From positions 1 through 32,173 of the IMG/VR virus record IMGVR_UViG_3300042922_000432: DNA of 32,173 nucleotides. The stretch is one strand, 5' to 3'. The first letter of the stretch is position 1; the number at the start of each line of letters is the position of its first letter. Below, in pieces: positions 3,359 to 28,972 of this stretch. The translations under genes were made by a program, and so were the position numbers. The notes below the pieces were generated by a model. It searched no databases, was not told where the DNA came from, and was given only the letters and a program-made list of their open reading frames with translations. The stretch comes from a virus.

Positions 3359-4210
3359 ATAGACAAGATTTTTAATAGAATTTGTTATCACTGTAAATCA
3401 AAAATTAAATTAAAACGATATGATAATGAAAATGTAGCATATTATGACAATCATTATTATCACACGCAATGTCTTACAGACATTATTAATAACGAAGGAA
3501 ATAAATTAGTTAGAAAATGTGGCTGTTGCAAGGAAGATATTAATTTGATTAAGTCAGAAAATGTAATATTTTATGACGGAAAATATCATCATTATGAATG
3601 TTTTATGAACAAGTGTAATACAATGAAAACTCCAAAATGGAAGACGGCATTAAAATACATAGATCAATATATTGAAGAAGCAAAACAAAATATATCAAAA
3701 TTAAGTGAAACCATAAAGCTTGATATTAACGAATTGCCGAATTACGAATTGGATGCTGAAAAAAATATTACTAGAATATTTAATGAGTCAGATGTTGATG
3801 ATTTTATAAAAATTCAATACGATACCACAGCAATTCCATGGAAAATATTATGCAAAGTTTATAATGGGACGTATAAAAATTTAACAAAACCTATTCCTCC
3901 AGAAGATTTACTTGATATGTGGACTCAAAAGATTGACAGTTTAAATAAGATTGCAGAAAGAAATAGAAAATCAGGCAATGAAATTACTGGCATCGGTAGA
4001 ATCTCATATGATTTAGCAATATTAACTAACAAATATGACGGATATCTTAATTGGAAAGAACAACAACGAATTGCATTAGTAGAGCAAAAACAGAAAAGAC
4101 AAGAAGAAAACAACTCAATTAATTATGAAAATATAAATATGGCAGTAATTAAAAATAATAATACACAAAACAACACATTAAATATAAATGATATTTTAGA
4201 TGAAATATAA
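3359..4210 (+). CDS. double zinc-finger protein upstream of the replicative helicase
   Basis: The N-terminal 90 residues hold two similar treble-clef or LIM-like zinc knuckles: CYHCKSK with HTQC, then CGCCKED with HYECF, each a CxxC followed by HxxC about 25 residues later. The rest is helical, with an Asn-rich end (NNNTQNNTLNINDI). Its place between a Sak4-like ATPase and a DnaB-like helicase suggests a replication accessory role, perhaps helicase loading or DNA binding, but no loader motif is visible. Start choice: GGTGGAG lies just before an ATA at 3359, while the in-frame GTG at 3350 lies inside that ribosome binding site. ATA is therefore the better-placed start. Length from there is 283 residues. 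Confidence 0.65.
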   Translation: MDKIFNRICYHCKSKIKLKRYDNENVAYYDNHYYHTQCLTDIINNEGNKLVRKCGCCKEDINLIKSENVIFYDGKYHHYECFMNKCNTMKTPKWKTALKYIDQYIEEAKQNISKLSETIKLDINELPNYELDAEKNITRIFNESDVDDFIKIQYDTTAIPWKILCKVYNGTYKNLTKPIPPEDLLDMWTQKIDSLNKIAERNRKSGNEITGIGRISYDLAILTNKYDGYLNWKEQQRIALVEQKQKRQEENNSINYENINMAVIKNNNTQNNTLNINDILDEI

Positions 4211-27073: not shown

Positions 27074-27102
27074 TAACAAACATGGAAAAAGGAGAATATA
27101 GA

Positions 27103-28602
27103 ATGAATAAAGTAAAATTAACAATGATTGAATTATGTTCTGGAATTGGAGCACAGATTAAAGGAATGGATAAGACTAATTTATTTGAAACAGAAGTCTT
27201 AGCAACAGCAGATTTAGATAAAGAAGTAGTGGTAAGTTATGCAGCGATGCATTGTGGATTAACAAATGAGTTAATTGAAACTTACGAAAGATATCCAAGT
27301 AAAGAAGAAATGGTAAACAAACTTACGGAAAAGAGACTTGGTTATGATTTTAAAAATGATAAGCCTTTTGATTGGGATAAATTATCAAAGAAAAAAGATA
27401 AAACAAAAGGTATCGAAAAATATTGGTTGGCAGACCATTTATCACATAATCTTGGAGATATGATGAAGATTGAAAAGTTGCCATATTGTGACCTTCTTAC
27501 ATATTCTACACCATGTACAGATTTGTCAATAGCAGGTCAGCAAGAAGGGTTAAAGTGGACATGTCAAGATTGTGGTTGTGAATATGACCCATCTAAATTG
27601 GATGTGGATACACGATATACTTGTCCGAATTGTGGTAGTTCTAATATTAAATCCACACGTTCAGGTTTGATGTATGAAGTGGAAAGATTTTTGGCTACAT
27701 CTAAAGATAATAATACACTACCAAAATATCTACTTATGGAAAATGTAGATGCTTTAGTATCTAAAAAATATATTGACAGTTTTAATGATTGGATTAATAG
27801 ATTGGACACTCTTGGCTATAACTCTTATTACCAAACAATTAACGCAAAAAACACAGGTGTTCCTCAGAATAGAAATAGAATATTTTGCGTATCTATTCGT
27901 AAAGATGTTGATACTAAAAGTTTTCAATTTCCACAGCCATTTGACATTGGTATTCGTTTAAAAGATGTTTTAGAAACTGATAATAATATTGTTGAAAAAT
28001 ACTTTTTATCAGATGAAATTCAAAAAAGATTACAGATTACAGATCCAACATTTGAAAAAAATATAATTGGTACAACAAAACCAAATTTTAGAACTATAGG
28101 ACAACGAGATTTAGTATATCAGAAGGATTCAATTATTGGTGCTTTAGTCGCTACGGATTACAAGCAACCAAAACAGGTTTTAGAAAATGAACCTATACAT
28201 ATAGCAGATTTATGTAGTGAAAAATTTCAAAGAATGCATGAACAATCAAGACGAGTTTATAGTGAAGATGGTATTGCTCCAGCTATGCATACTTGTGGTG
28301 GTGGAAATACTGAACCTAAAGTGGAAAGAGAAGATTGTAGAGTTGTAAGAAAACTTACACCAAAAGAAGCACATCGCCTTATGGGATTTGATGACATTGA
28401 CTATGACCGTTGTAAAGAAGTTGGTATGTCAGATACACAAGGATATAAACAATCTGGAAATTCTATTGTTACTAATTGCATTGAATTAATTGGAGAACAT
28501 TTATATAAGGCTCAATACGATAATACATATATTTGTACCGATGAAAGAATATTAAACGGAGATGTTGAAGATTTAAATTTTACTCAACCACAGGCGGTGT
28601 AA
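27103..28602 (+). CDS. DNA (cytosine-5) methyltransferase, zero-frame product
   Basis: The 499-residue zero-frame product methylates cytosine at C5. Motif I is ELCSGIGAQIKGM near the start, motif IV STPCTDLSIAGQ with catalytic Cys138, motif VI MENVDAL near 213, motif VIII QNRNRIFCVSIR, motif IX CRVVRKLTPKEAHRLMGF and motif X GYKQSGNSIVTNCI. Between motifs IV and VI lies an inserted zinc ribbon (Cys154, 157, 159, 174, 177). The target-recognition part contains RRVYSEDGIAPAMHTCGGG. The frame stops at 28600-28602, about 30 residues past motif X, but two further modules follow in successive -1 frames. Start ATG 27103 follows AAAGGAG. The likely role is protection from host restriction. Confidence 0.92.
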   Translation: MNKVKLTMIELCSGIGAQIKGMDKTNLFETEVLATADLDKEVVVSYAAMHCGLTNELIETYERYPSKEEMVNKLTEKRLGYDFKNDKPFDWDKLSKKKDKTKGIEKYWLADHLSHNLGDMMKIEKLPYCDLLTYSTPCTDLSIAGQQEGLKWTCQDCGCEYDPSKLDVDTRYTCPNCGSSNIKSTRSGLMYEVERFLATSKDNNTLPKYLLMENVDALVSKKYIDSFNDWINRLDTLGYNSYYQTINAKNTGVPQNRNRIFCVSIRKDVDTKSFQFPQPFDIGIRLKDVLETDNNIVEKYFLSDEIQKRLQITDPTFEKNIIGTTKPNFRTIGQRDLVYQKDSIIGALVATDYKQPKQVLENEPIHIADLCSEKFQRMHEQSRRVYSEDGIAPAMHTCGGGNTEPKVEREDCRVVRKLTPKEAHRLMGFDDIDYDRCKEVGMSDTQGYKQSGNSIVTNCIELIGEHLYKAQYDNTYICTDERILNGDVEDLNFTQPQAV

Positions 28603-28616
28603 TATCTGCTTGTGGT
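28572..28616 (+). promoter_or_regulatory. predicted -1 ribosomal frameshift signal 1
   Basis: A heptamer TTTAAAT (28572-28578) lies in frame as T-TTA-AAT. After an 8-base spacer, ACCACAGGCG (28587-28596) pairs with TGCTTGTGGT (28607-28616) over 10 bp including two G-U, around a 10-base loop. The zero-frame stop TAA (28600-28602) is in the loop. The -1 frame opens only just upstream (TGA at 28566-28568), leaving a short overlap in which the heptamer sits. This is the canonical layout of a -1 frameshift site. Confidence 0.65.
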
Positions 28617-28799
28617 GCTAAACCAAAACTTGTTGGTGGTATAGGTGAAATAAACTTTGGTAAACAATTTAGACAAGGAAATCGTGTATATGATAGCAAT
28701 TCAATTGCAATGTGTTTACTTTCACAACCAGTCGGGAATGCAGGAGGATATAGTTACTTATATACCGTTGAAAATTTTCAGAAACCGCCAATGAATTAA
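28578..28799 (+). CDS. methyltransferase tail module 1, -1 frame
   Basis: Read after slippage at 28572, this adds 73 residues to the first 492 of the methyltransferase (about 565 in total), ending at TAA 28797-28799. The key segment NRVYDSNSIAMCLLSQPVG (28680-28736) resembles RRVYSEDGIAPAMHTCGGG inside the enzyme (28249-28305) and the second tail module. It is preceded by KLVGGIGEINFGKQFRQG and followed by GGYSYLYTVENF. There is no start codon with a ribosome binding site for this frame, so it must be reached by frameshifting or be a remnant. A target-recognition-like role is inferred. Confidence 0.6.
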   Translation, partial: FYSTTGGVISACGAKPKLVGGIGEINFGKQFRQGNRVYDSNSIAMCLLSQPVGNAGGYSYLYTVENFQKPPMN

Positions 28800-28812
28800 T
28801 ATTTGTTGGTGG
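28772..28812 (+). promoter_or_regulatory. predicted -1 ribosomal frameshift signal 2
   Basis: In the tail-module-1 frame, AAATTTT (28772-28778) reads A-AAT-TTT, a second X-XXY-YYZ heptamer. After a 6-base spacer, CCGCCAATGAAT (28785-28796) pairs with ATTTGTTGGTGG (28801-28812) over 12 bp including three G-U, around the loop TAAT that contains most of the TAA stop (28797-28799). The next -1 frame opens just after TGA at 28769-28771. The layout repeats that of signal 1. Confidence 0.65.
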
Positions 28813-28972
28813 ACTTGAAAGCAATAAATGGATTGATAATGGTAAGGATCTATCAAGAAATTTTAAGCAAGGATATAGGGTTTATGACAGCAAAGGAATA
28901 GCAGCATCATTAACCGCAAAAGGCGGTGGTTTGGGTGGGTGTTGTGGACTATATTTAGTAAAATCCCAATAA
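28778..28972 (+). CDS. methyltransferase tail module 2, second -1 frame
   Basis: Read after slippage at 28772, this adds 64 residues and ends at TAA 28970-28972, giving a full product of about 623 residues. It reads SETANELIFVGGLESNKW, then a module YRVYDSKGIAASLTAKGGG (28874-28930) and LGGCCGLYLVKSQ. Its resemblance to module 1 (VGG near the front, FxQGxRVYDSxxIA, LYxV) indicates that the modules arose by duplication. No independent start is present. If frameshifting does not occur, both modules are decayed remnants of a longer enzyme. Confidence 0.6.
   Translation, partial: SETANELIFVGGLESNKWIDNGKDLSRNFKQGYRVYDSKGIAASLTAKGGGLGGCCGLYLVKSQ

Follow-up and report, generated by a model that had tools for sequence, protein, structure and literature searches.

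A C5 cytosine DNA methyltransferase gene of a bacterial virus, located in the window (the whole 32,173-nt stretch of DNA analysed here), ends in two successive signals that very probably direct programmed -1 ribosomal frameshifting in tandem, a reading drawn from sequence in the absence of expression data. Most ribosomes would terminate at the 0-frame stop codon TAA 28600 and release a 499-aa enzyme. The first of two stems would stall a fraction of them, and a -1 slip on the heptamer A_AAU_UUU would add a module (M1) to give 565 aa; part of the once-shifted ribosomes would then undergo a further -1 slip at the second signal, which would extend the product by another module (M8) to 623 aa. These lengths, which the original prediction had put forward for three nested products, proved exact when counted from ATG 27103. 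Tandem frameshifting towards these predicted products is well supported, while their amounts and the enzymatic effect are untested.

The methyltransferase gene spans positions 27103-28602 on the plus strand, and its identity follows from its relatives and from matches of the 0-frame product to PF00145 (E 6e-50) and PHROG 116. Domain search and alignments met the membership features of this family, namely PF00145, the PC motif IV, ENV, and motifs IX and X. Its likeliest start, ATG 27103, lies downstream of an AGGAG (27090-27094); from an alternative ATG at 27082, the ORF product would have 506 aa. Phage contigs contain relatives of 75-80% identity, and so does a single genome record, that of Eubacterium plexicaudatum. 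The 32 kb phage record also codes for DNA polymerase III alpha, RecJ, ligase, an anaerobic ribonucleotide reductase and dUTPase, and its source appears to be a gut-type bacterial virus. The catalytic domain of the methyltransferase contains a zinc-ribbon-like CxxC...CxxC insertion (27550-27660, residues about 155-190) that is common to L001, L002, L004 and L033 and absent from L005-L009 (L-numbers are the labels of the loci collected for comparison). Besides, there is a 26-nt inverted repeat of 85% complementarity in the methyltransferase region (27608-27633 and 28664-28689), whose arms are 1,030 nt apart.

At the first site, the slippery heptamer A_AAT_TTT (28575-28581, plus strand) lies in frame 0 and precedes a stem-loop (28588-28615; arms 28588-28598 and 28605-28615) with the stop codon TAA 28600-28602 in its loop. 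Since the innermost pair of this element, T28598/T28605, is a mismatch, the 11-bp stem amounts to ten pairs plus one flanking pair; its fold had an MFE of -18.2 and a z-score of -3.2. The whole layout (28575-28615) is repeated 197 nt further downstream. There, the same heptamer (28772-28778, plus strand) is read in the same frame as the first -1 product (GAA AAT TTT CAG), and the spacer CAGAAA (28779-28784) leads to a 12-bp stem-loop (28785-28812; arms 28785-28796 and 28801-28812) whose TAAT loop (28797-28800) carries the stop TAA 28797-28799. Three of the 12 pairs are G-U, and only one of 200 shuffles was as good as the 61-nt fold (MFE -17.5 kcal/mol, z -4.0). With spacers of 6 nt and stems of 10-12 bp, the window sites meet the 5-9 nt criterion for a stimulatory structure. 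On direct reading and translation, the second site matched the original prediction in all respects, i.e. its coordinates, heptamer frame, 6-nt spacer, 12-bp stem and loop stop, and it does copy the layout of the first; the next -1 frame likewise opens after TGA 28769-28771 and ends at TAA 28970-28972, as had been proposed. A terminator-like tail was found after neither window stem. A search of Rfam returned no frameshift element; we disregarded a fluoride-riboswitch match on the minus strand that stayed below threshold.

Searches by protein, by DNA pattern and by protein tail alone brought together 29 distinct junctions in phage contigs, the two of the window and 27 more. All 29 carry A_AAT_TTT in frame 0, nearly all have the stem, and the stop codon lies exactly 18 nt past the heptamer in 23 of them; the 0 and -1 frames overlap by 13-61 nt, after which the -1 frame runs on into a recognisable module. 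Because some of these junctions came from queries baited with the heptamer or stem, the set anchored on the protein tail, for which neither had been selected, gives the fairer count. Here, 15 of 27 distinct loci had the in-frame heptamer, 14 of these with an open -1 extension and 13 with a stem of at least 7 bp. The cassette is missing from about half of the related methyltransferases. As codon usage in the same genes predicts the heptamer with a chance of only about 0.24 per site (the sites not being fully independent), its codons are not forced and represent a choice. Across 1,716 distinct ORF 3' ends from all collected loci, the combination of AAATTTT, a stem of at least 7 bp and a loop stop occurred only at these methyltransferase junctions; the same design with other heptamers turned up elsewhere in four cases, judged to be chance. 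Matches to a broad DNA pattern were mostly chance as well and were discarded on frame and stem.

The AT-rich site might invite the explanation that RNA polymerase, and not the ribosome, slips to make the shifted frames. Polymerase slippage normally requires a long homopolymer, however, which AAATTTT does not contain, and both the stem and the fixed spacer would be left unexplained, leaving this explanation with virtually no credence. The modules might also be separate proteins whose translation is coupled to, or re-initiated at, the 0-frame stop, with the stem controlling initiation; brief frame overlaps are typical of coupled genes, and a few loci (L002, L006 and L008) have an ATG, GTG or TTG near the stop. 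Yet 26 of the 29 junctions lack a -1 frame ATG at a distance of up to 100 nt from the stop, and in the window neither module is preceded by a start codon, the first possible ones being situated inside the modules, 110 and 134 nt beyond the stops. Re-initiation would, in addition, leave the fixed in-frame position of the heptamer unexplained, and we grant it a very slim chance. Programmed -1 frameshifting remains our preferred reading, and the behaviour of the stems among relatives bears on it.

In 20 junctions of the site 1 class, 99.5% of the stem cells were paired and five pairs had changed on both sides, values that none of 500 shuffles equalled, and slid controls were paired to 38-51%. A separate covariation alignment of 19 sequences included L001, in which the module is joined in frame. 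An otherwise fixed C-G pair has turned into G-C in L103, and another pair into U-A in L164. The layout is kept with differing stem sequences in L103, L108 and L110 (z -4.0 to -4.6), the latter two having other stem sequences at the same place, again with the stop in the loop. At one stem position, a G-U pair is conserved in 17 of 20 sequences, which points to a stem that acts as RNA and not as a DNA palindrome. This matters for the proposal that the inverted repeats are DNA-level sites of module exchange between methyltransferase genes and that frameshifting is incidental. Exchange at the junctions has clearly happened, since one element precedes different modules and follows different enzymes, and different module strings come after one and the same signal. 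However, the conserved G-U pairs suit an RNA better than a DNA palindrome, and under exchange alone there would be no reason for the fixed heptamer frame and stop position. As a replacement for frameshifting, exchange thus has only a slim chance; the two are compatible, and exchange is more a complement than a rival.

The second site was detected unaided in the window by a covariance model built on site 1 (36.6 bits, E 6.7e-6), and it was found again in L011 and L020 with the same heptamer. In L020, it also follows site 1, so the tandem arrangement is known twice, and in both L020 and the window the second signal sits in the frame opened by the first and gives the third frame. In L011, by comparison, decay has turned site 1 into an in-frame join, which leaves site 2 as the sole working junction. 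Between phages, the 41-nt element is 90-93% identical, the downstream module 67-80% and the upstream sequence 45-72%, and site 2 comes after M1 in the window and after M2 in L011 and L020. Given this conservation behind differing upstream modules, the mobile unit appears to be the signal together with its module. The site 2 stem is 100% paired in the three phages, and its four varying pairs are all compatible. As these show one-sided (G-U) changes only, covariation proper is established for site 1 alone: of the two stems whose covariation had been suggested as a check, the first passed across 20 phages, while the second offered no two-sided changes in three. The record of site 2, limited to three phages with one-sided stem changes, counts against our model, as does the fact that L001, L016 and site 1 of L011 reach the module unshifted.

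The two modules themselves, M1 (GGIGEINFGKQFRQGNRVYD...; 28581-28799, plus strand, ending at TAA 28797) and M8 (GGLESNKWIDNGKDLSRNFKQGYRVYDSKGIAASLTAKGGG...; 28778-28972, plus strand, ending at TAA 28970), carry a clear signature of selection. M1 compared with its relatives gave a dS of 0.8-1.1 and a dN of 0.16-0.20, and between M8 of the window and those of L011 and L020, 77-79% of the synonymous and 14-15% of the nonsynonymous sites differ (dN 0.16). The signature is confined to the -1 frame; the other two frames lack it, and stops appear in them. These comparisons show selection at the protein level for both modules, and only in the predicted -1 frame. Random decay would instead make the modules remnants of a longer gene broken by two frameshift mutations, with coincidental stems. 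It could draw on the in-frame joined versions of L001, L016 and L011 and on several relatives that carry -1 frame modules without A_AAT_TTT, but other phages repeat the combination of heptamer, offset, spacer, stem and stop-in-loop, and the stem covariation and the strong selection on both modules already contradict it. We consider decay hardly credible, and the original argument that two like junctions speak against it gained support from the covariation at site 1, the recurrence of site 2 and the selection on both modules. Conservation and selection of the signal, its frame, the stem and the modules are thus demonstrated by the alignments, while frameshifting proper, that is the slippage itself and its frequency, is inferred.

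As we picture it, the portable cassette would consist of the heptamer, a 6-nt spacer, a stem with the 0-frame stop in its loop and then the module, and related phages would put such cassettes on ordinary and circularly permuted C5 methyltransferases alike, mixing modules. Cassettes were indeed observed behind ordinary enzymes (tail ...HLYKAQYD..CTDE..NF) as well as behind permuted ones (L020, 5970-7262; L033, 720-2450; L076, 896-2755 on the minus strand), in which motif II comes first and motif I (SSFFSGIGAFE) last, at the C-terminus and just before the slip site. Between motif I and the slip site, the permuted methyltransferase of L055 (2-1786) is interrupted by a segment matching HNH and AP2 domains, with LYENIN and LYKSIN on its flanks, which looks like the in-frame insertion of a homing endonuclease. 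A covariance model run over 397 genomes of the Eubacterium plexicaudatum family retrieved only the in-frame variant of that genome itself, and a strict DNA pattern retrieved nothing from the same 397 genomes; the frameshift element looks phage-borne, its host being unproven. Annotated phage genomes contained no DNA relative and only weak matches to the modules.

Two observations had been named as potential refutations, namely homologs with a module fused in frame without a stem, and loss of the stem in relatives that keep the module. L001 (4449-4499) and L016 (4447-4497) do fuse M1 in frame through one extra spacer base, yet retain heptamer and stem, and L011, decayed and fused at site 1, has nonetheless kept site 2. 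The second observation is approached by L132 (2099-2170), a candidate structure-less form, which keeps the heptamer, the offset and M1 in the -1 frame; its stop lies 3 nt behind the heptamer, and a clear stem is lacking. These exceptions show that frame use is evolvable, and the model for the window withstands them. Together with L165, whose stem is weak, and with L152, L168-L170, L172 and others, whose modules lie in the -1 frame without A_AAT_TTT, they argue that the use of frameshifting is evolvable, not universal. Permuted methyltransferases of L168, L169, L170 and L172 have a -1 frame module (IVYDDYNSRVRADQNTIGTLTT) after TCC GGG GGA GAR (about 2300-2360), which is possibly another type of frameshift or phase variation. 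Runs of 6-8 G were noted near the module junctions of L130 and L131 (about 2176), L136 (about 2170) and L107 (about 2850); in L136 and L130, the M1 frame would shift with the length of the run, as in phase variation. In L016, the methyltransferase frame is broken near 4002.

What the modules do can only be approached from their position. Seven other C5 methyltransferases (L104, L105, L106, L111, L113, L114 and L115) contain M1 in frame within their target-recognition region, between motifs VIII and IX; M8 itself was not seen there. Other modules have in common a D-G-[IL]-x-x-[TS]-[LI]-T-like pattern that is also present in the recognition region of L033. No sequence match of the modules was found in Pfam, PHROG or PDB, and AlphaFold gave no usable module model (pLDDT below 50) for either the natural fusion of L001 or L104 with M1 in its recognition region, the catalytic domains being good in both. 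A recognition role is therefore an inference from position, and the lack of structural support counts against it. Through the modules, the minor long forms may acquire an altered or an additional DNA specificity that would help against host restriction; such a change in the long forms is untested and, in our estimate, plausible while falling a little short of likely.

Among prokaryotes, the main known cases of structured -1 frameshifting are transposases, tail and coat genes of phages, and dnaX. The signals described here are like those of IS1/IS3-family transposases and dnaX in joining an X_XXY_YYZ heptamer to a downstream structure (PMC4066793), but IS elements are dominated by A_AAA_AAG and A_AAA_AAA, so that heptamer and gene differ, and unlike in those bacterial signals, no Shine-Dalgarno-type stimulator was noticed at the usual distance. 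In E. coli, heptamers of the H_HH.U_UU.Y type, A_AAU_UUU included, rank with those most prone to shift (PMC4066793). Tailed phages append Ig-like domains to coat or tail proteins by frameshifting and use it for their G-T tail assembly chaperones (PMC5009743), where -1 slippage likewise yields a minor, C-terminally extended form. Those are structural or assembly proteins, however, whereas the present case concerns an enzyme with serial signals and interchangeable modules. Tandem -1 frameshifting was reportedly described by Jacks in 1987 for mouse mammary tumour virus, whose gag-related polyproteins likewise involve two successive -1 shifts on one mRNA. Such double shifts occur in some retroviruses, the first being reported as more efficient (PMC5009743). 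In contrast to these, we deal with a bacterial virus, a DNA methyltransferase, simple stems and a stop in the loop, and specificity-type modules are added in place of protease and polymerase. Multispecific phage C5 methyltransferases such as M.SPRI and phi3T contain several target-recognition segments in one enzyme, and several recognition-type segments per enzyme are likewise found here. Theirs, though, lie in frame between motifs VIII and IX, whereas the extra ones here lie behind motif X or the relocated motif I, accessible by frameshifting only.

In the open-access literature, to which our search was limited and where absence is not proof, there was no relevant report of frameshifting in DNA (cytosine) methyltransferases, nor did we find one of a phage gene yielding three nested products through two successive shifts. 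In PMC10274946, a mention of methyltransferases appears, going only by the title of its reference 35, to concern macrolide-induced frameshifting. While the mechanism is of a known kind, its use in phage DNA methyltransferases, as stackable frameshift-plus-module cassettes, looks new.

In summary, the present work puts forward a frameshift-dependent extension of phage DNA methyltransferases that gene callers would truncate, a warning for their annotation. The series of comparable natural signals with differing stems should provide material for studying what drives bacterial frameshifting. Only tentatively, we suggest that the stackable, portable unit may let one gene give rise to frameshift-graded isoforms of differing DNA specificities and thereby serve as an adjustable, broad-spectrum shield against restriction. 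If real, the frameshifting in these enzymes would offer phages an extra route to tune and diversify the marking of their DNA.
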